From Frankiales bacterium (GTDB lineage Bacteria > Actinomycetota > Actinomycetes > Mycobacteriales > SCTD01), in contig JAOPWV010000179.1 of the NCBI GenBank assembly GCA_025965475.1, forward strand, positions 1 through 61,133: 61,133 nt of DNA, given 5' to 3'. Positions 4,053-36,067 of this stretch are shown in pieces; positions within the stretch are counted from its first letter, which is position 1; every line of letters starts with the position of its first letter. Both the position numbers and the translations under genes were made by a program. The notes under the pieces are model-generated. The model was not told the origin of the DNA, made no database searches, and saw only the letters and a program-made list of their open reading frames with translations.

Positions 4053-4329
4053 AAGACCTCCGCCCACGTGGACGGGGGACCGCCTCCCGAGTAGGGCGGC
4101 GTGAAGCGGGCGGGGACGCAGGTACGCCAAGACGGCCTGGCAACGCCGCCCGTGTGGCGCCCTTGTGCCGGGAGAGCACCGGCGACGCCCCGCCCGCGAC
4201 TGGGTGAGCATGATCCAGCCGTCATGATGCAGATGAGGTTGATCCTGGCCGGGAGCACGTCGCGGCCCGCACGAGCGGGGTCGAGCGCCCTCCCGGTGTT
4301 AGCGCCCGGCAAGGATTTCGCAACGCTGC

Positions 4330-4345
4330 GTTAGAGACCCGTTAG
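4330..4345 (+). promoter_or_regulatory. Candidate KdpE-type tandem-repeat box before the kdp operon
   Basis: GTTAGAGACCCGTTAG is a GTTAG repeat with 11-bp period, the layout used by OmpR/PhoB-type regulators such as KdpE. It ends 41 bp before the first start codon of the operon. A close copy (13 of 16 positions) lies upstream of the APC transporter on the opposite strand at 14860-14875. Binding by KdpE is inference. Confidence 0.4.
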
Positions 4346-4386
4346 CAGGGGTCCACAGCGGCGCCCGATGGTCGTTCACTCCTCCT

Positions 4387-4770
4387 GTGTCGGTCATTGC
4401 CACGTACCCGAGGATCGCCGATGAGCCGGGCCTGCGGCTCGGCATCGGGTCCGCCCTCCTGATCACGAGTCTGCTCGCAGCAGGGGGCCTGCAGATGGAC
4501 CCGCATCGGACGCTCGTGTTGCTCCTGCTCGTCGTCGGCGGCTCCAGCGCGCGCACCACTGTCGCCGTCGGCGCTGCGCTGGGCGGGCTCGGCTGGGGGC
4601 TGTACACGGGCTTTGTCGTGAACCGGTACGGCGAACTCACATTCGGCGCCGCCGACCTGACCCACCTGCTTCTGCTGGTCGCTGCCGGCGTCGGTACCGC
4701 CACTGTCACCGCCCAGGCAACTCGCATTCGGGCAAACCGCCCTCGCGCAAGGACAGGAGTCACTCGATGA
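4387..4770 (+). CDS. Small membrane protein at the head of the kdp operon
   Basis: A 127-residue protein with three to four hydrophobic stretches (IGSALLITSLLAAGGL, TLVLLLLVVGG, TVAVGAALGGLGWGLYTGF and LLLLVAAGVGTATVTA) and a basic C-terminal tail. It resembles the compact helical sensor modules (DUF4118-like) found near kdp genes, though I cannot prove that match by eye. Its stop overlaps the next start as ATGA, so it is co-translated with the following peptides. A role in K+ sensing or Kdp assembly is inference. The GTG start has no good ribosome site. Confidence 0.65.
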   Translation: MSVIATYPRIADEPGLRLGIGSALLITSLLAAGGLQMDPHRTLVLLLLVVGGSSARTTVAVGAALGGLGWGLYTGFVVNRYGELTFGAADLTHLLLLVAAGVGTATVTAQATRIRANRPRARTGVTR

Positions 4771-4850
4771 TCGATCTCGTCTTCATCGCCTTGACGGGCG
4801 TGTTCTTCGGCCTGGCGGCGCTGCTCCTCAAGGGGCTGGAACGGCTGTGA
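4767..4850 (+). CDS. 27-residue membrane peptide in the kdp operon
   Basis: This is too short for routine gene calling. The peptide begins [12 protein letters not shown], forms one hydrophobic helix and ends with a basic/acidic LKGLERL tail. A good ribosome site (GGACAGGAG, 4751-4759) precedes ATG 4767. The start overlaps the upstream stop (ATGA), and its own stop overlaps the GTG of kdpF (GTGA). This tight packing strongly suggests it is expressed. It is not KdpF itself but sits exactly where a second small Kdp-associated peptide would be made. Confidence 0.65.
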
Positions 4851-4936
4851 GCGTCGAGAACGCCGTGGGCCTGGTCGCCTCGATCCTGCTCGTCGGCTAC
4901 CTGCTCGTGGCCCTGGTGTTCGCAGAGCGGTTCTAG
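4847..4936 (+). CDS. kdpF: KdpF, small subunit of the Kdp potassium ATPase
   Basis: A 29-residue single-helix peptide (starts [13 protein letters not shown], ends VFAERF) matching the size and the ERF-like end of KdpF proteins. KdpF stabilises the KdpABC complex in the membrane. It overlaps the preceding peptide stop (GTGA) and ends 2 nt before the kdpA start, as expected in kdpFABC operons. Confidence 0.85.
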
Positions 4937-4938
4937 CC

Positions 4939-6597
4939 ATGTCGGACACGACCGCCGGTCTGTTGCAGACCGCCGTCCTGATCGCCGCCCTGGCCGTCTG
5001 CTACCGCCCGCTGGGCACCTACATGGCCCGCGTCTACACCAGTACGCGCCACCTGCGGGCCGAGCGCGGGATGTACCGCCTGATGGGGGTGGACCCCGAC
5101 GCCGATCAGCGGTGGCCGGTCTACGCCCGGTCCCTGCTGGCCTTCTCTGCGGTCAGCGTGCTCGGGCTCTATGCGCTGCAGCGTCTGCAACCGCACTTGC
5201 CGCTCTCGCTGGGCTTCCCCGGCGTCGCACCGCCGCAGGCGTGGAACACGGCGGCGTCTTTCGTGACCAACACGAACTGGCAGTCGTACTCCGGTGAGTC
5301 GACGATGGGGCACGTGACCCAGATGGCGGGGTTGGCGGTGCAGAACTTCGCCTCCGCCGCGGTCGGCATGGCCGTCGCCATCGCGGTCGTCCGCGGGCTC
5401 GTCCGTAGCCGCACCGACCGGTTGGGCAACTTCTGGGTGGACCTGGTGCGCGGCACGCTGCGCATCCTGCTGCCCCTGTCGGTTGCCGCGACGATCCTGC
5501 TCGTGGCGCTCGGGGTGGTGCAGAACTTCTCGTCCGGCACGGCGGTGCGCACGCTGGCCGGGCATGCACAGATGATCACGGGCGGTCCGGTGGCCTCGCA
5601 GGAGGCGATCAAGGAGCTTGGCACGAACGGCGGCGGGTTCTACAACGCCAACTCGGCGCACCCGTTCGAGAACCCGACCGCCGTCAGCAACCTGCTGGAG
5701 ATCTTCCTGCTACTGCTCATCCCGGTCGCCCTGACCCGCACGTTCGGGTTGATGGTCAAGGACCGGCGGCAGGGCTACGCCATCCTCGCGGCGATGTGGG
5801 TCCTGTGGGCGATGATCCTGGGCGGCGTCTGGGCGATGGAGACGTTCCATCCCGGGACGGCGTACCAGTTGGCCGGTGCCTCGCTGGAGGGCAAAGAGAC
5901 CCGGTTCGGCGTGCCCGCCTCCTCCCTGTTCGCCACCTCCACGACCGGTACGTCGACGGGCGCGGTGAACTCGTTCCACTCCTCGTTCACGGCGCTCGGC
6001 GGCGGTTTGCTGATCTTCAACATGGGGCTCGGGGAGGTGGCGCCCGGCGGCGTCGGCTCCGGGCTCTACGGCATCCTCGTGCTCGCGACGATCACCGTGT
6101 TCGTGGCCGGCCTGATGGTCGGGCGCACCCCCGAGTATCTGGGAAAGAAGGTCACGGCCCGCGAGATCAAGCTGGTGTCGCTGTACATCCTGACCATGCC
6201 GGTCGTCGTCCTCGCGCTGGCCGGTGTCGCCATCACCCTGCGCACAGCCAGGGCATCCATTCTCAATCCCGGCCCGCACGGCCTGTCCGAGGTGCTCTAC
6301 GCCTTCATGTCCGGCACCAACAACAACGGCTCGGCGTTCGCCGGGCTGAATGCCAACACCGACTTCTACAACAGCGCTCTCGGCGTCGCGATGCTGGCCG
6401 GCCGGTTCCTGCCCATCCTGTTCGTGCTGGCGCTGGCCGGATCGCTGGCCCGCCAGCAGCCGGTGCCCGCCACCCTCGGCACGCTGCCCACCCACCGGCC
6501 GCTGTTCGTGGGGATGCTCGTCGGCGTGATCATCATCGTGGCAGGTCTGACGTTCTTCCCGGCACTCGCACTCGGCCCCATGGCGGAGGGACTCTGA
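4939..6597 (+). CDS. kdpA: KdpA, potassium-binding channel subunit of KdpFABC
   Basis: A 552-residue polytopic membrane protein forming the K+ pore of the high-affinity P-type ATPase. The pore-loop signatures of the four repeats are visible: [41 protein letters not shown] and [12 protein letters not shown]. Length and order of about ten helices fit KdpA. The stop overlaps the kdpB start (ATGA at 6595-6598 region), so the subunits are translationally coupled. Confidence 0.97.
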
Positions 6598-8705
6598 TGC
6601 CTGTCACGACGCCCCCGCCGTCGGCCCGTCCGGCCGCGGCGGAAGAGACCCGTACGAGTCCGGCTGGAGCCTTGCGCATCCAAGCTGGACTCCTCGATCC
6701 GAAGATGCTCCTGACCGAGCTGCCGGAGGCCGTCCGCAAGCTGGAGCCCCGCGTCATGGCGCACAACCCGGTCATGTTCGTGGTCGAGGTCGGCGCCGTC
6801 CTCTCCACGGCGCTGGCCGCCACGCGCCCGACCCTGTTCGCCTGGGCGGTGGTGTTCTGGCTGTGGTTGACCGTGGTGGCCGCGAACCTTGCCGAGGCCG
6901 TGGCCGAGGGCCGCGGCAAGGCGCAAGCCGAGTCGCTGCGCCGCGCCAAGACCGACACGATCGCCCGCCGTGTCCGTGAGGACGGCAGGGAGGAGCAGGT
7001 GCCTGCCCCGCAGCTGCGGCTCGGCGACCGGGTGGTGGTCGAGGCGCGGGAGATCATCCCGGGCGACGGCGACGTCGTGGAGGGCGTCGCAAGCGTGGAC
7101 GAGTCCGCGATCACCGGTGAGTCCGCGCCGGTGATCCGGGAGTCCGGCGGGGACCGGAGCTCGGTCACCGGAGGCACGAGGGTGCTCTCGGACCGCATCG
7201 TCGTGCAGATCACCGCGCGGCCCGGGGAGAGCTTCATCGACCGCATGATCGCGCTGGTCGAAGGGGCCTCGCGGCAGAAGACGCCGAACGAGATCGCCCT
7301 GAACATCCTGCTCGCCAGCCTGACCGTCGTGTTCCTGATGGCCACCGTCACGCTCCAGCCGTTTGCCGTCTACTCGGGCGCCGAACAGTCACTGATCGTG
7401 CTGGTCGCGCTGCTGGTCTGCCTCATTCCGACCACCATCGGCGCCCTGCTGTCCGCGATCGGCATCGCCGGAATGGACCGCCTGGTGCAGCACAACGTCC
7501 TCGCCATGTCCGGCCGGGCGGTCGAGGCCGCCGGCGACGTCAACACGCTGCTGCTGGACAAGACAGGCACCATCACCCTCGGCGACCGGCAGGCCTCGGA
7601 GTTCGTCCCGGCCGACGGCGTCGAGCCGCGGGAGGTCGCGGACGCCGCTCAGCTGTCGAGCCTGGCCGACGAAACTCCGGAGGGCCGCTCGATCGTGGTG
7701 CTGGCCAAGCGCGACTACGGGCTGCGCGAGCGCGCACCCGGCGAACTGGCCGGTGCACAGTTCATCCCGTTCACCGCGCAGACCAGGATGAGCGGGGTCG
7801 ACGTCGACGGCCGCCGCCTGCGCAAGGGTGCCGCCGCAGCCGTCATGAAGTGGGTCCGGGAGAACGGCGGCCGGCCCAGCGAAGAGGTCGGGGCGTTCGT
7901 CGACGGCATCTCCGCCAGCGGCGGCACCCCGCTCGTCGTCGCCGAGCACGTCGACGGACAGCCGGCCCGCACGCTCGGCGTGATCCATCTCAAGGACGTC
8001 GTCAAGTCGGGTATGCGCGAGCGCTTCGACGAGATGCGCCGCATGGGCATCCGTACCGTGATGATCACTGGCGACAACCCGCTGACTGCCCGGGCCATCG
8101 CCGAGGAGGCCGGCGTCGACGACTTCCTGGCCGAGGCCACGCCCGAGGACAAGATGGCGCTGATCAAACGTGAGCAGCAGGGCGGCCGGCTCGTCGCCAT
8201 GACCGGCGACGGCACCAACGACGCCCCCGCGCTGGCCCAGGCGGACGTCGGGGTGGCCATGAATACCGGCACGTCGGCGGCGAAGGAAGCAGGCAACATG
8301 GTCGACCTCGACAGCAACCCCACCAAGCTCATCGAGATCGTCGAGATCGGCAAGCAGCTGCTGATCACCCGCGGTGCGCTGACCACGTTCTCCATCGCCA
8401 ACGACATCGCGAAGTACTTCGCGATCATCCCTGCCATGTTCGCGGTCTACGCCGGACTCGGCACGCTGAACATCATGCGACTCGCCACACCACACTCGGC
8501 GATCCTGTCTGCCGTCATCTTCAACGCCCTCATCATCGTCGTTCTGATCCCGTTGGCCCTGCGCGGCGTGCGCTACCGCCCGGCGTCGGCCGATGCCATG
8601 TTGCGCCGCAACCTGCTCGTCTACGGGCTCGGCGGGATCGTCCTTCCGTTCCTCGGCATCAAGCTCATAGACCTGATCGTGTCCCGGCTTCCGGGCCTCG
8701 GCTGA
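6597..8705 (+). CDS. kdpB: KdpB, catalytic P-type ATPase subunit
   Basis: A 702-residue P-type ATPase. The start is the ATG overlapping the kdpA stop; the frame is open further upstream inside kdpA but that extension is a shadow. Visible motifs: TGES in the actuator domain, the phosphorylation site DKTGT with Asp near residue 321, and [19 protein letters not shown] in the hinge region. It hydrolyses ATP to drive K+ uptake through KdpA. A Pro/Ala-rich N-terminal tail precedes the first helices. Confidence 0.97.
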
Positions 8706-8721
8706 AACCCGGAGACGGCTC

Positions 8722-9336
8722 ATGACAACACGCATCCCTGCTGCAGTGCGCCAGTCCGGGGCGGCCCTGCGTACGTTCCTCGTCCTGACCGTCATCGTCG
8801 GGATCGCCTATCCACTGGCCATGACCGCCATCGCACAGGCCGCGTTCCGGGGGAACGCCGGCGGCTCGCTCGTACAGGGGCACGGCGGCGCTACGGTCGG
8901 TTCGGTGCTCATCGGGCAGTCGTTCACCGACACCAACGGTCAGCCGTTGCCGCAGTACTTCCAGTCCCGACCGTCCGCCGCCGGCAACGGCTACGACCCA
9001 CTTGCCAGCGGTGCGTCGAACCTCAGCCCCACCAACCCCAAGCTCATCGAGGAGGTACGGCAGCGGCGCGCGTCGGACGCACAGCTGAACGGCGCGCCGA
9101 CAGGCCTCGTACCTCCCGACGCACTGCTCGCCAGCGGCTCGGGGCTCGACCCTCACATCAGCCCGGCCTACGCCGCCCTGCAGGTGGACCGCGTCGCCCG
9201 GAGCCGTCACCTCGCGCCTGCTCGTGTCCGTGCCGTCGTCGCCGACCATACGCAGGGGCGCGTGCTCGGGTTCCTGGGTGAGCCGCGGGTCAACGTGCTG
9301 GAGCTCAACCTGGCGCTCGACCACCTCGTCCGGTGA
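8722..9336 (+). CDS. kdpC: KdpC, accessory subunit of KdpFABC
   Basis: A 204-residue protein with one N-terminal helix ([19 protein letters not shown]) and an extracytoplasmic domain. Conserved KdpC features are present: [36 protein letters not shown] and QVDRVARSR. It contacts KdpA and KdpB and is required for ATP affinity and assembly. A gap of 16 bp after kdpB keeps it in the same operon. Confidence 0.96.
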
Positions 9337-9371: not shown

Positions 9372-11975
9372 ATGGGCCGCGGGAGCTTGCGGGTCTATCT
9401 CGGCGCGGCACCGGGCGTCGGGAAGACGTACGCGATGCTGGACGAGGCCCAGCGCCGTGTCGCGCGCGGCACTGACGTCGCCGTCGGGTTCGTCGAGACC
9501 TACCGCCGCAAGCACACAGCGGCGATGCTTCAAGGACTCGAGGTGGTGCCCCGCCGGAATCTGAGGTACCGGGGCGCCACCTTCTCCGAGATGGACGTCG
9601 ACGCAGTGCTCGCCCGCCGCCCGCAGGTGGCGCTGATCGACGAGCTTGCCCACACCAACGTGCCCGGGTCGCGCAACGGGAAGCGGTGGCAGGACGTCGA
9701 GGAACTCCTCGACGCCGGCATCGACGTGATCTCCACGGTGAACATCCAGCACCTGGAGTCCCTCAACGACGTCGTGGCGAAGATCACCGGCGTGCCGCAG
9801 CGGGAGACCATCCCGGACGCCGTGGTCCGCGCCGCTGACCAGGTCGAGCTGATCGACATGGCCGCCGAAGCGCTGCGGCGCCGCCTCGCGCACGGCAACG
9901 TCTACGCCCCGGAGAAGGTCGACGCCGCTCTCGCCAACTACTTCCGGGTGGGCAACCTGACTGCGCTGCGCGAGCTGGCTCTGCTGTGGACCGCGGACAA
10001 GGTCGACGAGGGGCTGCAGCACTACCGCGCCCAGCACGACATCACCGGCACGTGGGAGACCCGGGAACGGGTCGTCGTCGCGATCACCGGCGGCCCGGAG
10101 GGCGAAACGCTCATCCGCCGAGCTGCCCGCATCGCGGCCCGTTCCGGGGGCGGGGAACTGCTCGCCGTACACGTGACCCGGTCCGACGGGCTGACCGGCG
10201 CGGACCCCGCCGCCCTCGCACATCAGCGGCAACTCACCGAGAGCCTCGGTGGCAGCTACCACCACGTCGTGGGTGACGAGATCCCCGAGGCGCTGCTGGA
10301 GTTCGCCCGGGCGGAGAACGCCACCCAGCTCGTGCTCGGCGGCAGCCGCCGGTCCTGGCTCTCGGCGATCCTGACCGGTCCCGGCATCGGCGCCACCACG
10401 ATCCGGGACAGCGGCGACATCGACGTGCACATCGTCACGCACGCCGAGATGGGCCGCGGTCGGGGAATCCCGCACCTGCGCGGCAACCTGACCCGGCGTC
10501 GTCAGGTACGTGGCTTCGCGCTGGCCGTGGGGCTTCCCGTCGCGCTGACCCTCGGGCTGGTCCATCAGCGCACGGCGCTGAACCTGGTCAGCGACGTTCT
10601 GCTGTTCCTGCTCGCGGTGGTGGTGGTGGCGCTGGTCGGGGGGTGGCTGCCGGCGGTGGTCGCCGCCGTCGGCGGTTCGATCCTGCTCAACTACTACTTC
10701 GCCGAACCGCTGCACACCCTCTCGATCAGGGACGCGAACAACGCGCTGGCGCTCGCCGTGTTCGTCGTCGTCGCCGCCCTGGTGAGCTCGGTCGTCGACC
10801 TCGCGTCGCGACGCACCCGGCAGGCGGCCCGCGCCACCGTCGAGTCGACGACGCTGGCTACGCTGGCCGGGAGCGTGCTCAGCGGCGACGCCGCGTTGCC
10901 TGCGTTGCTCGAACGCGTCCGAGAGGCCTTCGGTCTGAACTCCGTCGCCATGCTGGAGAAGACGCCGTCCGGCGGGGTGGTTGCTGCGGAGATGCGCGGT
11001 CCGGCCGCTGCCTGGACAACCGTTGCCGCCGCCGGCCCGGATCCGTGCCGCCGGCCCGAGGAGGGAGACATCGTGGTCCCCGCCGGCGATCGTTTCTCGC
11101 TCGTGCTGCGAGGCAAGCCGTTGCGCGCCGACGACCAACGGCTCGTTGGCGCTTTCGCGGCGCAGGCGGCCGGCCTCGTGGACCGGGCGCACCTCGAGGC
11201 GGCGGCCGCCAGCGCCGCCTCGCTCGGTGAGGCGGACCGCATGCGGACCGCCCTGCTCGCCGCGGTCGGACACGACCTGCGCAGCCCCCTGGCCTCCGCC
11301 AAGGCGGCCGTCACGAGTTTGCGGAGCGGGGACATCACCTGGTCGCAACAGGACACCGGCGACCTGCTGGCCACCGCCGACGAGTCTCTCGACCGTCTCA
11401 GCCGGCTGGTGGACAACCTGCTGGACATGAGCCGTCTGCAAGCCGGTGCGCTGTCGGTTCTGCCTCGTCCGGTGGCCCTCGCGGAGATGGTCGCCCTCGC
11501 GCTGGACGACCTGGGTCCCGCCGGACGCTCCGTCGTCGTCGATGTGCCGGACGACCTGCCGGAGGTGGTCGCGGACCCGGGGCTGCTCGAGCGGGTGCTG
11601 GTCAACGTGCTGTCCAATGCCCTGCGTTACGCGCCGTCGCAGACGCCGCCGAGGCTGAGCGGCAGCAGCCTGCACGACCGGGTCGAGCTGCGGATCATCG
11701 ACCGTGGCCCCGGTATCCCAGCGGAGGCGCGTGACCGGGTCTTCGCGCCGTTCCAGCGTCTCGGCGACACCGACAACACCTCCGGCGTCGGGCTCGGCCT
11801 CGCTCTGGGCAGGGGCCTGATGGAGGCGATGGGGGGTGCGCTGAGCCCGGAGGAGACGCCCGGTGGTGGCCTGACCATGGTCATCTCCCTTCCGACAGCG
11901 GACGTCGCGCTCGGAGCGAGCGAGCCCGGTCAGCGTGAGCGGGCGGCACGCAGCGGCCATCCGGTGGTGTCATGA
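9372..11975 (+). CDS. kdpD: KdpD, K+-responsive sensor histidine kinase
   Basis: An 867-residue sensor. The N-terminal KdpD domain holds a Walker A sequence (GAAPGVGKTYAML); a USP-like domain follows (VVVAITGGPEGETLIRRAARIA), then four membrane helices (about 380-480), a GAF-like linker, and a HisKA/HATPase module. The phosphoacceptor is His634 in AVGHDLRSPLASAKA, and the ATP lid motifs NVLSNALRYAP, DRGPGIP and GVGLGLALGRG are present. It controls KdpE and overlaps it by 4 nt. Confidence 0.96.
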   Translation: MGRGSLRVYLGAAPGVGKTYAMLDEAQRRVARGTDVAVGFVETYRRKHTAAMLQGLEVVPRRNLRYRGATFSEMDVDAVLARRPQVALIDELAHTNVPGSRNGKRWQDVEELLDAGIDVISTVNIQHLESLNDVVAKITGVPQRETIPDAVVRAADQVELIDMAAEALRRRLAHGNVYAPEKVDAALANYFRVGNLTALRELALLWTADKVDEGLQHYRAQHDITGTWETRERVVVAITGGPEGETLIRRAARIAARSGGGELLAVHVTRSDGLTGADPAALAHQRQLTESLGGSYHHVVGDEIPEALLEFARAENATQLVLGGSRRSWLSAILTGPGIGATTIRDSGDIDVHIVTHAEMGRGRGIPHLRGNLTRRRQVRGFALAVGLPVALTLGLVHQRTALNLVSDVLLFLLAVVVVALVGGWLPAVVAAVGGSILLNYYFAEPLHTLSIRDANNALALAVFVVVAALVSSVVDLASRRTRQAARATVESTTLATLAGSVLSGDAALPALLERVREAFGLNSVAMLEKTPSGGVVAAEMRGPAAAWTTVAAAGPDPCRRPEEGDIVVPAGDRFSLVLRGKPLRADDQRLVGAFAAQAAGLVDRAHLEAAAASAASLGEADRMRTALLAAVGHDLRSPLASAKAAVTSLRSGDITWSQQDTGDLLATADESLDRLSRLVDNLLDMSRLQAGALSVLPRPVALAEMVALALDDLGPAGRSVVVDVPDDLPEVVADPGLLERVLVNVLSNALRYAPSQTPPRLSGSSLHDRVELRIIDRGPGIPAEARDRVFAPFQRLGDTDNTSGVGLGLALGRGLMEAMGGALSPEETPGGGLTMVISLPTADVALGASEPGQRERAARSGHPVVS

Positions 11976-12706
11976 CCCGGGTGCTGGTGGTCGACGACGA
12001 GCCGCAGATCATCCGTGCTCTCGGCATCAACCTGCGCGCTCGTGACTACGACGTCCTCACCGCCGCCACCGGACGTGAGGCGCTCGCCGTGGCGGCGCGG
12101 CATCGGCCGGACGTGGTCATCCTCGATCTGGGACTACCGGATCTGGACGGCGTCGACGTCATCCGCGGGCTGCGTGGCTGGTGCAGCACGCCGATCATCG
12201 TGCTGTCGGGACGCAGTGACAGCGGCGACAAGGTCGAGGCGTTGGACGCCGGCGCGGACGACTACCTGACCAAGCCGTTCGGGGTGGACGAGCTGCTGGC
12301 GAGGATGCGCGCCGTCTCACGACGAACCACCGCGGAGGACGCGACACCGACGTACACCTTCGGGCCCACGACCGTCGATCTCGCCGCTCGCCGCGTCACC
12401 GTCGAGGATGACAGCCGGCTGAGCGAGGTCCGCCTGACACCCACGGAGTGGCATCTGCTGGAGGTGCTCCTGCGCCATCCGGGCAAGCTGCTGACCCAGC
12501 GACAGTTGCTCGCCGAGGTGTGGGGGCCCGGCTACGAGAACGCCGGCGGCAACCTGCGCGTCTACATGGGCCAACTCCGGCGCAAGCTCGAGGTGGACCC
12601 CGCCCGCCCCCGGCACCTGCTGACCGAGCCCGGGATGGGATACCGCTTCGAGCCACGGGAACGCAGCAGCGCGGGACAGGAGGACCCCCTGGCGGGTCGG
12701 CGTTGA
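11972..12706 (+). CDS. kdpE: KdpE, OmpR-family response regulator
   Basis: A 244-residue response regulator. The receiver domain carries the acidic pair in VDDEPQ, the phosphoacceptor Asp52 (VVILDLGLPDLDG) and the switch Lys (YLTKPFG). The C-terminal winged helix includes RLTPTEWHLLEVLLRHPG and ends with the GYRFEP hairpin. It is expected to activate the kdp operon. GTGA overlap with kdpD makes the pair one transcription unit. Confidence 0.96.
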   Translation: MTRVLVVDDEPQIIRALGINLRARDYDVLTAATGREALAVAARHRPDVVILDLGLPDLDGVDVIRGLRGWCSTPIIVLSGRSDSGDKVEALDAGADDYLTKPFGVDELLARMRAVSRRTTAEDATPTYTFGPTTVDLAARRVTVEDDSRLSEVRLTPTEWHLLEVLLRHPGKLLTQRQLLAEVWGPGYENAGGNLRVYMGQLRRKLEVDPARPRHLLTEPGMGYRFEPRERSSAGQEDPLAGRR

Positions 12707-12736: not shown

Positions 12737-14719
12737 TCAGCCCACGTGCACGTGTGGGCGGCGCCTGCGGTCCGGTTCGGCCTCGCGCAGCACCTCGCGC
12801 GTGATCGGGGCGACCTCGCCGACGCCGAAGGCCAGGAAACGCAGCATGTTGACCGCCGGATTGCCCTCGGTCCACTCGAAGTAGATGTGCGGCTGCTGCC
12901 GGGTGACGTCGCGGATGTGCAGGAGCAACGCGGCGAGTGCGTTCGGCACGGTCGAGCTCTCCATCGTGAGCAACCGGAAGTTGTGCCGGATCTCGCCCCG
13001 CACGTGCAGTTCGGTGGCGAACTCCGATGGGTCTGTGACGGTGACCTCGACGAAGATGACGTCGGCCTCCGGGGGGATGTCGTGCTCCTCCCGCTCGTGT
13101 CGGATCTTGGTCTGGTACTCCGCGAGGTCCCGGGCATCGGGCTCGTTCGCGATCAGCCGGATCCTGCGGGTGGCGCAGTCGCGGACGAACCGCTGGGCCA
13201 GGTCGTCCAGCACCACATCGGTGACCCGGAGTTCGAAGGCGCGGTTCAGCCGGGACGCGAACGACACGATGATGATGGCGGCGATGAAGCAGGCTCCGAT
13301 CTTCACGCCGTCCGGCCGCTCGACCACATTCGCGATGGTCGTGTAGACGAAGATGGCGGCGATGGTGCCGAAGGCGACGGTCAGGGTGTGCTGACCGGCG
13401 CGCCGTGCGGCGAGCGTGACTGCGACGGCCGCTGAGGTGATGAGGACGAGGACGCCGGTGGCGTAGGCGCCGCCCTGCGCGTCGACGTTGGCCTTGAAGA
13501 TCCATGTGATCACGAAGGCGATCGCGGTCAGGACCAGCACCATCGGGCGGACCGCGCGTGCCCAGTCGGGGGCCATCCCGTAGCGAGGTAGGTAGCGGGG
13601 CATCAGGTTCAGCAGGCCGGCCATCGCGGAGGCGCCGGCGAACCACAGGATGGCGATGGTGGACAGGTCGTAGACCGTCCCGAACGTGCTGCCGAGATGC
13701 TCGTGGGCGAGGTACGCGAGGGCGCGGCCGTTCGCTGGGCCGCCGGGTTTGAAGGCGCTGTGCGGGATGAGCAGGGTGGTGATGATGCTGCTGGTGACGA
13801 GGAAGACGCTCATGATCAGCGCGGCGGTGGTGAGCAGTTTCTTGGTGTCGCGGATGCGGCCCACCGGGCGCCCTTCGCTGTCGCTCGCGTCGCCCTCCAC
13901 ATGTGGCATGACCGCCACCCCGGTCTCGAACCCGGACAGGCCGAGCGCGAGTTTGGGGAACACCAGCAGCGCCAGCCCGACCAGCAGCAGGGGGTTGCTG
14001 CCATGCTGGGCCGTGAGGGCCGTCGTCCATCCGGACACCACAAGGGGGGAGCTCACGACCTGCCAGAGCCCCATGGCCACGACGACGACGTTCAGGGCCA
14101 GGTAGATCCCGACCAGGACGACCGCGATACCGATCGCTTCGGTGAAACCCTTGAGGAACACCGCGCCGAGCAGGCCCACCAGCACCAGAGTGATCGCGAC
14201 CTCGTGCCCGTGCAGGCCAGCGGGCACGTTCGGGTTCTCCACCACGTGCGCGGTCGCGTCCGCTGCGGACAGGGTGATCGTGATCATGAAGTCGGTGGCC
14301 GCGAACCCGAGCAGCACCAGGACGAACAACTTCCCCTTCCAGTACGGCAGGAGCCGCTCGAGCATGGCGATCGAGCCCTCGCCGTGCGGGCTCTCCTCAG
14401 CGACCCGCCGGTAGACCGGCAATGCTCCGCACAGCGTCAGGACAACGAGAACGAGCGTGGCGATCGGGGACAGCAGCCCGGCGGCCAGTGCGGCGATCCC
14501 CGGCTGGTAGCCCAGCGTGGAGAAGTAGTCCACGCCGGTCAGGCACATGACCTTCCACCACCGGTGGCGGTGCTGCGGCGCGACCTGCTCGGCGTGCGGG
14601 CCCTCGATCTGCCCAGGACGTCCGCCCAGTCCGTTCAGGAGCCAGCCGCGCAGCCCGGCCTGGGCCACCCGGGCGGTCGTCATCCCGGGCTGCGGTGCCG
14701 TGGACGTCGAAGTGGTCAC
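12737..14719 (-). CDS. APC-superfamily transporter with a large cytosolic C-terminal domain
   Basis: A 660-residue permease with about 12 hydrophobic segments in residues 55-490 and a soluble tail of roughly 160 residues that begins after [15 protein letters not shown]. The first helix region ([19 protein letters not shown]) is the amino-acid-permease type. The size and soluble C-terminal domain resemble KimA/KUP-like potassium importers more than classical amino acid permeases. Lying tail-to-tail with kdpDE and sharing a candidate regulatory box with the kdp operon, it may move K+. The substrate is inference. GTG 14719 overlaps the stop of a 30-codon leader ORF. Confidence 0.75.
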
Positions 14720-14859: not shown

Positions 14860-14875
14860 CTAACGGGATCCCAAC
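14860..14875 (-). promoter_or_regulatory. Candidate KdpE-type box upstream of the APC transporter
   Basis: On the minus strand this reads GTTGGGATCCCGTTAG, a GTTRG repeat with 11-bp period. It matches the box before the kdp operon (4330-4345) at 13 of 16 positions, including the shared core CCCGTTAG. It lies 39 bp upstream of the TAGCTT hexamer that would serve the transporter, and 119 bp upstream of the divergent hemerythrin-like gene. Confidence 0.4.
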
Positions 14876-14994: not shown

Positions 14995-15549
14995 GTGACG
15001 ACGCCGTTCGACGAGGCGCTGCGCCCACGCGCGCCCCGCCATCCCGAGGCACCGGTCACCGCGGTCGGCCGGCACGGGCAGCAGACCCTGGTTGCGATCC
15101 ACGGGCACCTGCGCCAGGAGATGGCGCAGGTCGTGCGAGCCGTCACGGATGCGCTGGCCGACGAGGGGCGCGCGGCTGACGCGCGCGCGTTGATCAACGA
15201 CGCCAGCATGACCGTGAACTACCGGGCACTGGGCTCGTTCTGCGGCCGATACTGCCAGGTCGTCGCCGTGCACCACCGGATCGAGGACCAGGCGATGTTC
15301 GTCGACCTGGCGGGCGCCGACCCCGAGCTGCGACCGGTGCTCGACCGGCTGTCAGAGGAACACGACCTCATCCACGCGACGCTGGTCGGCCTCGACAGCG
15401 CCCTGGTCGCCATGATCGAGCAGGAGCCCGGCGCACTGGCCAGGGTGACCTCCGCCGTGACGGAGCTGCAGGCCGGGCTGCTCAGCCACCTCGACTACGA
15501 GGAGGCCGAGCTGCTCGGACCCATCGGACGTCTCGGCATCTACATCTGA
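14995..15549 (+). CDS. Hemerythrin-like domain protein
   Basis: A 184-residue cytoplasmic protein. The His/Glu pattern of a di-iron four-helix bundle is visible: HGHLRQEM, HHRIEDQAMF, EEHDLIH and HLDYEEAELL. Such proteins bind O2 or sense iron or nitric oxide; the exact role here is not shown. GTG 14995 is chosen because AGGGAGAGA lies just upstream; the open frame extends back to 14761 without support. It is divergent from the APC transporter. Confidence 0.85.
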   Translation: MTTPFDEALRPRAPRHPEAPVTAVGRHGQQTLVAIHGHLRQEMAQVVRAVTDALADEGRAADARALINDASMTVNYRALGSFCGRYCQVVAVHHRIEDQAMFVDLAGADPELRPVLDRLSEEHDLIHATLVGLDSALVAMIEQEPGALARVTSAVTELQAGLLSHLDYEEAELLGPIGRLGIYI

Positions 15550-18549: not shown

Positions 18550-18975
18550 CTAGACGCCGGCGACCGGCACGCCCAGTTCGGCGAGCAGTGCGCGCACCCG
18601 GGCATCCACGTCGTCGAGGATCCGGCGCACGATCTCGACCTCCTGGCCGGCGGGGTCGTCGATCTGCCAGTCCTCGTACCGCTTGCCGGGGAAGACCGGG
18701 CACGTCTCCCCGCAGCCCATCGTGACCACGACGTCGCTGCCCTGGACGGACTCGGGGGTCAGCAGGGACGGCAGGTGCCCCTCGGTCGACAGGCCCCACT
18801 CGGCAAGCACCGCTGACACCCCGGGGTTGACGCCGGAACCAGGGTCCGAACCCGCGCTGCGGACGTCGACGGCGCCGCCCGCGTAGTGCTCGGTGAGCAC
18901 CTTGGCAGCCACCGAGCGGCCCCCGTTGTGGATGCAGGCATACAGGATCGTGGGGCGACGGTCGGGTGCGCTCAC
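18550..18975 (-). CDS. arsC: Low-molecular-weight phosphatase-type arsenate reductase
   Basis: A 141-residue cytoplasmic protein reducing arsenate to arsenite. The P-loop is CIHNGGRS (C-x5-R), with the later cysteine in MGCGETCPVFPG serving as resolving cysteine and the DDPAG motif typical of the family. GTG 18975 overlaps the acr3 stop by 4 nt. The usual loop is CVHNAGRS, so Ile and Gly are mild changes. It forms one operon with arsR and acr3. Confidence 0.9.
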   Translation of the reverse strand: MSAPDRRPTILYACIHNGGRSVAAKVLTEHYAGGAVDVRSAGSDPGSGVNPGVSAVLAEWGLSTEGHLPSLLTPESVQGSDVVVTMGCGETCPVFPGKRYEDWQIDDPAGQEVEIVRRILDDVDARVRALLAELGVPVAGV

Positions 18976-35060: not shown

Positions 35061-36067
35061 CGACGCCCTCACCGGTGGATGCCCAGGCTGACTCGGCGAG
35101 AGGTGTGAACCCGGGACCCGGTGTCGTGGTCGTCGGTGCCATCAATGTCGACCTCGTCGTCACCGCCGGTCGCCTGCCCGGTCCCGGCGAGACGGTGCTC
35201 GGTGGCCGACTCGCCACGCACGGTGGCGGCAAGGGTGCCAACGCGGCCGTGGCCGCTGCCCGGGCCGGGTCCTCGGTGGTCCTCGTCGGTGCGGTCGGTG
35301 CGGACGAGAACGGCCGCACCGCCCTTGACGAGCTCCGTGCGGAGGGGATCGACGTCAGCGCTGTCGCGGTGCTCGAGGACGCGGCAACGGGGGTCGCGCT
35401 GATCGTCGTGGACCCGGCCGGCGAGAACCAGATCGCGGTCGCGGCCGGCGCCAACATGGCCCTGACGGCCGAGCAGGTGCGGACCGCCCTGCGGGCAGCG
35501 CTGCCCAGCGCGGGCTGCGTCCTGGTCAGCACCGAGATCGCCGGTGAGGCCGTCACCGCGGCCGTCGAGGCGGCGACCGCGGCAGGAGTCCGGTGCGTGC
35601 TGAATCCGGCCCCCGTGACGGCAGAGGTCGCGGCGGCGCTCTCTTACGGCCCGCTGCTGACGCCCAACGCGACGGAGAGCATCGAGTTGGCGGCCCTTCT
35701 GGGCTCGCCGCACGCCCCGACCTCCTCTGCCGATGGCGACGTGGCGACCGCCGCGGCGCGGGGTATCGCCGCGCGCACCGGTGCCCCGGTGGTGGTCACG
35801 CTCGGTGGTGACGGCGCCCTGGTCCTCGAGGCCGGTAGGGACGTGGAGCACGTCCCGCCGCGTCCGGCCGCCGTTCGGGACACGACCGGCGCCGGTGACA
35901 CCTTCAACGGCGTGCTGGCAACGCGGCTGGCGCGGGGGGACCGGCTGGCCGACGCCGTGCGCCTGGCCACGGTCGCGGCGTCCCTGTCCGTCGCTCACGC
36001 GGGCGCCCGCGATGGCATGCCCGCGGCCGCTGCGATCGACGCCGCCGTGAGCACCGCCCGACCGTGA
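35057..36067 (+). CDS. rbsK: Ribokinase (PfkB family)
   Basis: A 336-residue sugar kinase converting ribose to ribose 5-phosphate. PfkB signatures: VVGAINVDLVV at the N-terminus, GGKGANAAVAAARAG for sugar binding, NPAPVTAEV, TPNATE, and DTTGAGDTFNGVLA with the catalytic Asp. Longer N-terminal tail than E. coli RbsK. GTG 35057 overlaps the lacI stop. Together with nucleoside hydrolase and PRPP synthetase it forms a plausible ribose salvage route. Confidence 0.9.
   Translation: MTTPSPVDAQADSARGVNPGPGVVVVGAINVDLVVTAGRLPGPGETVLGGRLATHGGGKGANAAVAAARAGSSVVLVGAVGADENGRTALDELRAEGIDVSAVAVLEDAATGVALIVVDPAGENQIAVAAGANMALTAEQVRTALRAALPSAGCVLVSTEIAGEAVTAAVEAATAAGVRCVLNPAPVTAEVAAALSYGPLLTPNATESIELAALLGSPHAPTSSADGDVATAAARGIAARTGAPVVVTLGGDGALVLEAGRDVEHVPPRPAAVRDTTGAGDTFNGVLATRLARGDRLADAVRLATVAASLSVAHAGARDGMPAAAAIDAAVSTARP

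Follow-up and report, generated by a model that had tools for sequence, protein, structure and literature searches.

A putative KdpE operator shared by the kdp operon and a KimA-like transporter gene in a Frankiales bacterium

Two direct repeats in the 61,133-nt stretch of DNA analysed here (the window) are probably both operators of KdpE, the response regulator whose gene occupies 11972-12706. Through them, the kdpFABC-DE operon and the gene of an APC-superfamily transporter, P0002, would be driven at low K+, with P0002 importing K+. We give this reading a probability of about 0.8. One site lies before the kdp operon and the other before a transporter with the K+ residues of KimA, so that both are probably under a single switch. 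The box before kdp belongs to a known type of element. Descriptions of KdpE control over P0002-type transporters, or of the Kdp-free module presented below, were absent from the literature searched, outside which most subscription journals fall. To our knowledge, E. coli is one of only a few bacteria in which a KdpDE regulon has been mapped to any extent, and a 2023 article stated that KdpDE had not been analysed in Streptomyces (PMC10117811).

RESULTS AND DISCUSSION

The kdp locus and its neighbours

The locus is an ordinary actinobacterial kdp operon with kdpF, kdpA, an ORF holding kdpB, kdpC, and the genes of a full-length KdpD and of KdpE. Its genes and those adjoining it are as follows.

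4387-4770, + strand: ORF P0006 (127 aa), with no other ORF between it and the kdp box; its product, a small membrane protein, resembles DUF4118, the membrane part of KdpD
4767-4850: 27-codon ORF just before kdpF and overlapping the kdpF start; no Pfam match
4847-4936, + strand: kdpF (Pfam PF09604)
4939-6597, + strand: kdpA (Pfam PF03814, E 2e-230)
5796-8705, + strand: mechanically called ORF holding kdpB (Pfam E1-E2 ATPase and HAD hydrolase); the true start is probably near the kdpA end
8722-9336, + strand: kdpC (Pfam PF02669, E 9e-68)
9372-11975, + strand: kdpD, full length (Pfam KdpD, Usp, DUF4118, HisKA, and HATPase)
11972-12706, + strand: kdpE, OmpR/PhoB-type response regulator (Pfam)
12737-14719, - strand: gene of the APC-superfamily transporter P0002, 660 aa, a probable K+ importer of KUP/KimA type
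14995-15549, + strand: divergent hemerythrin-domain gene (Pfam PF01814); probable GTG start at 14995, judged from AGGGAGAG; 119 bp from the APC box

P0006 matches Pfam PF13493 with an E value of 2.6e-5, under the curated cut-off, and is 32% identical to the ORF at the equivalent place in a Propionibacteriales locus (L004). The kdpE product has E. coli KdpE among its top PDB matches, and its closest NCBIfam model is KdpE, matched under the curated cut-off of that model. The APC gene lies tail-to-tail with kdpE, as the sequence-only reading of this DNA had described. Both kdpA and the APC gene are absent from the three same-genus genomes searched. With respect to an RNA leader, an Rfam search of the window returned tRNA only.

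Two direct repeats that are rare in the genome

The sites were scored with a position weight matrix trained on the 600 bp upstream of 80 other actinobacterial kdpA loci, the window being left out. The motif learned from these 80 loci is CGTNARRRNNNCGTCAARG. The elements discussed below are the following.

4298-4313, + strand: GTTAGCGCCCGGCAAG, possibly a second KdpE box in degenerate form, which precedes the 4330 box by exactly 32 bp
4330-4345, + strand: kdp-operon KdpE box, GTTAGAGACCCGTTAG, with GTTAG as the half-site at both 4330 and 4341; matrix score 21.1, the best in the window
4375-4380, + strand: TTCACT, a possible promoter element at +45 from the box start, its role suggested by the T-rich element of other kdp loci
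14860-14875, - strand: putative KdpE box before the APC gene, GTTGGGATCCCGTTAG, with the annotated GTG 141 bp away; matrix score 17.6, the second in the window

The sequence-only reading gave the coordinates and strands of the two 16-mers correctly, and its description of both as GTTRG direct repeats with an 11-bp period is borne out, the APC half-sites GTTGG and GTTAG being 11 bp apart within 14860-14875. It had counted 13 identities in 16 positions; the actual count is 12, with mismatches at positions 4, 6, 7, and 8. The genome search that it proposed, for GTTRGN6GTTAG, yields two matches in 3.89 Mb, and these are the two sites. The relaxed pattern CGTNRRRRNNNCGTYAR matches five times in the genome, and the three matches besides the two sites fall inside ORFs, which on reading are FUSC-like, GGDEF-EAL, and Usp genes. 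Within the 61-kb window, the number of one-mismatch matches to GTTRGN6GTTAG is ordinary, being equalled in 32 of 100 shuffles. The scan of the whole genome was made with sequence patterns, and the full matrix scan covered the 61-kb window. A direct-repeat model accounts for both putative operators.

Conservation of the kdp box

Upstream of kdp, 71 of the 80 regions exceed the 99th percentile of same-locus control windows on the coding strand, a proportion that is partly circular since these are the training regions. The two sites of the window are outside the training set, and rank first (21.1) and second (17.6) over 61 kb on both strands. Box pairs exactly 32 bp apart are found at 56 of the 80 kdp loci, every other spacing occurring at six or fewer. 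The window ranks, the 32-bp pairs, and the match to the mapped KdpE sites described below constitute three non-circular supports, and therefore the repeat at 4330 is, by its sequence, a KdpE box. Boxes upstream of kdp in the same family score 18.2 (L136), 15.2 (L138), and 13.7 (L137). The next matches in the window, at 35325 and 37876, were rejected as further targets, both lying within coding ORFs.

The copy at 4298 retains GTTAG in register while its remainder has decayed, and scores -3.6 on the 17-column model. An anchored profile of 62 loci reveals a T-rich element shared across kdp loci at positions +44 to +49 relative to the box (T44, T45, T46, C48, and T49); the TTCACT at 4375 lies near this position. 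Further KdpE box pairs with the 32-bp spacing occur several kb downstream of kdp in Streptomyces and related loci (L082 at 18637-18685, L068, L061, L041, L035, and L011). In L082 and L035, the two loci examined, these pairs adjoin a universal stress protein gene.

Likeness to mapped KdpE sites

KdpE binds two half-sites as a dimer. A 22-bp KdpE footprint in the M. smegmatis kdpFABC promoter, CCGTAAAGAAACCATCAAGGCC, is given in PMC5401905; it scores 23.6 on the matrix (17 columns), which none of 20,000 shuffles reaches, mycobacterial loci being included in the training set. On the same 17 columns, the kdp and APC sites of the window score 20.4 and 16.1, respectively. The M. smegmatis site, likewise actinobacterial, has the same 11-bp-period direct repeat and is located upstream of kdpF. 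The available part of that article deals with KdpE on the kdpF promoter and on the kdpD promoter, to which it does not bind, and reports no APC transporter target.

The E. coli kdpFABC operator consists of the half-sites TTTATA and TTTACA, 5 bp apart (PMC3264566). Its sequence, CATTTTTATACTTTTTTTACACC, taken from the same article, scores 16.1 on the reverse strand (17 columns), with both half-sites falling exactly in register, and one of 20,000 shuffles reaches this score. The reverse complement of this operator, TGTAAA-N5-TATAAA, has the pattern and spacing of the actinobacterial YRTNAR-N5-YRTNAR, whereas it differs from the actinobacterial kdp box in being A/T-rich and oriented opposite to transcription. 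PMC5401905 states that the A-rich mycobacterial motif is without noticeable similarity to the E. coli or other known KdpE motifs. The A-rich mycobacterial motif and the T-rich E. coli motif are one motif on opposite strands.

The 11-bp geometry is common to the OmpR/PhoB family, and a search of the genome with KdpE gives 53 matches, most of which are to different response regulators or to receiver domains, so to speak a supply of candidates for a different regulator of this type (e.g., PhoP or MtrA, with 11-bp direct repeats) that would bind both sites. We consider this very improbable, given that 71 of 80 kdp loci conserve the motif and that the KdpE sites footprinted in M. smegmatis and E. 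coli both fit it. The GTTCACC-type boxes of PhoP and the GTAAC-type sites of MtrA also differ from the KdpE motif.

P0002 resembles the K+/H+ symporter KimA

P0002 has no Pfam or NCBIfam family match. Since it matches neither K_trans nor AA_permease_2 of Pfam, the latter of which is matched by one actinobacterial KimA, we term it KUP/KimA-like and do not file it as a member. The closest solved structure by both profile and fold is KimA (PDB 6s3k, 8b70, and 8b71), a K+/H+ symporter of the KUP family. A profile of 24 P0002 homologues has KimA as its sole PDB match (E 0.006), and its alignment with actinobacterial KimA by hhalign has a probability of 94% and an E value of 1e-7, at only about 25% identity between P0002 and that protein. 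The top three Foldseek and VIA matches of a P0002 model are all KimA (E 1.8e-11; Z 21-22), the model being poor, with a mean pLDDT of 57, and the matches having a large rmsd. P0002 may share the APC/LeuT-type membrane fold and the cytosolic C-terminal domain of KimA.

The K+ site and proton-coupling residues of KimA are D36, Y43, T121, Y377, and E233 (PMC6994465). They correspond to D64, Y71, T147, Y419, and E265 of P0002, which are invariant in 24 of 24 sequences; T147, D64, Y71, and Y419 were placed by alignment, and E265 only by reading the motif SGFETG against TGVEAI. On this sequence and model evidence, P0002 is likely to be a K+/H+ symporter, the alternative being amino acid transport. 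The genome has no KUP (K_trans, PF02705), and no relatives of P0002 were found among viral contigs. A second APC copy, 78% identical, is encoded elsewhere in the genome (G000:C153:4174-6105; L209) beside NADH dehydrogenase-like subunit genes.

Boxes upstream of P0002 homologues

Homologues of P0002 are present in 90 of 394 actinobacterial genomes. Of these 90, 71 also have kdpA, as against 122 of the other 304 (Fisher 7e-11, uncorrected for phylogeny), and the APC copy is within about 7 kb of kdpA in the genome studied here and in about 16 others. A box scoring above 12 is found in the upstream 400 bp of 53% of 43 P0002 homologues, the window excluded. With column-permuted matrices the figure for these 43 regions falls to 0.5%, and none of 300 reaches 53%. 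Genes other than the APC gene that lie up to 10 kb from kdp have a box in 13% of cases, and some of these are probably real targets. The 43 homologues are not independent, many coming from one genus (Streptomyces, by likeness to named loci); in addition, a few of the 43 regions are shared with a divergent kdp operon. Boxes occur in other families as well.

Several observations count against the KdpE reading of the APC site. The upstream box is missing in 47% of the 43 homologues, the closest ones included: neither the paralogue in the same genome (C153; L096) nor a same-family copy (G018; L084) has a box on its upstream side. The APC box of the window has no 32-bp partner, and carries a G where 74% of the training boxes have A. 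Streptomyces genomes usually have the box before APC on the other strand, so that no single geometry fits every case.

In the Propionibacteriales locus L004, APC and kdp are divergent, and the shared region is boxed on both strands, with GTTAGGAACCTGTTAG facing APC. The KimA-homologue gene directly upstream of kdp in Streptomyces is also boxed (L082, at 7621 and 7544).

Box orientation varies, being forward at kdp in actinobacteria, reverse in E. coli, and mostly reverse before Streptomyces APC. Hence, orientation alone cannot say which divergent neighbour is controlled, and the box at 14860 might act on the hemerythrin gene at 14995 instead of, or besides, the APC gene. In keeping with such control, the hemerythrin gene starts 119 bp from the box, and other genomes have boxes in either orientation relative to APC, but the strand of the box agrees with the arrangement at kdp, and box enrichment tracks the APC gene despite differing neighbours. 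We regard hemerythrin control as unlikely to be the explanation of the site, the hemerythrin gene being a possible second target of the APC-side box.

KdpE and the transporter without kdpFABC

Three genomes (G274, G396, and G426; loci L207, L206, and L205) have the APC gene, while the Pfam KdpA and KdpD sensor-domain models match nothing in them. Each encodes a KdpE orthologue (58-72% identity) 1.2-1.7 kb from the APC gene, and the gene between the two encodes a kinase, 353-470 aa long, whose only domains are DUF4118, HisKA, and HATPase; one of these short kinases shares 43% identity with the C-terminal half of KdpD from the window. A box is located upstream of the APC gene in all three, scoring 20.1, 15.7, and 24.6. 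No other single line of evidence speaks as strongly as these Kdp-free modules for KdpE and the transporter belonging together.

Strong boxes of 20-26 are also present before APC in three genomes of one family (f18) that are without KdpA or KdpD (G062, G335, and G351; L211, L213, and L214), an observation that counts against the KdpE reading.

The comparative evidence also bears on the possibility that only the kdp site is a KdpE box, with the APC site matching by chance and the APC gene lying outside the regulon. For the kdp site, chance is rejected: in 20 Mb simulated at the dinucleotide content of the window, no position scores as high as 21.1. For the APC site, the same kind of simulation predicts about 3 sites scoring 17.6 per random genome of this size, and nearly half of the APC homologues, closest ones included, have no box. 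Against this, the expectation in the 276-bp APC/hemerythrin intergenic region is 2.2e-4, boxes are strongly enriched before APC homologues in several families, and APC, KdpE, and box remain together where kdpFABC is missing. From the genome patterns, the homologue enrichment, and the simulation, a chance origin of the APC site appears distinctly unlikely.

Proposed regulation

That a KdpE box defines a small K+ regulon, as the sequence-only reading had suggested, is supported by the comparison through the conservation at 71 of 80 loci, the mapped KdpE sites, the boxed homologues, the Kdp-free modules, and the KimA-like transporter. When K+ is scarce, KdpD would phosphorylate KdpE. A KdpE dimer would then sit head-to-tail on CGTNAR-N5-CGTNAR with its 11-bp period, presumably activating rather than repressing transcription. 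The box at 4330 would drive kdpFABC-DE, beginning with the small DUF4118-like membrane ORF, and the box at 14860 would drive the convergent P0002 gene, whose product is expected to import K+ by H+ symport. The single APC box, as opposed to the paired kdp boxes, suggests weaker or later induction of the APC gene, which is a guess.

On a wider scale, we favour, with less assurance than for the window itself, a picture in which KdpE controls a new family of KUP-like K+ importers across actinobacteria. Some lineages would have dispensed with the Kdp pump yet kept KdpE, with a KdpD reduced to DUF4118-HisKA-HATPase, to serve this transporter only, and the operator would be an ancestral motif shared with E. 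coli on the other strand.

With a sharp operator model, regulon prediction in actinobacteria becomes a direct test. The P0002 family is nominated as a new family of K+ transporters, and its key residues are named. The Kdp-free versions of KdpDE provide natural material for learning why the sensor needs KdpD and Usp domains at its N-terminus.
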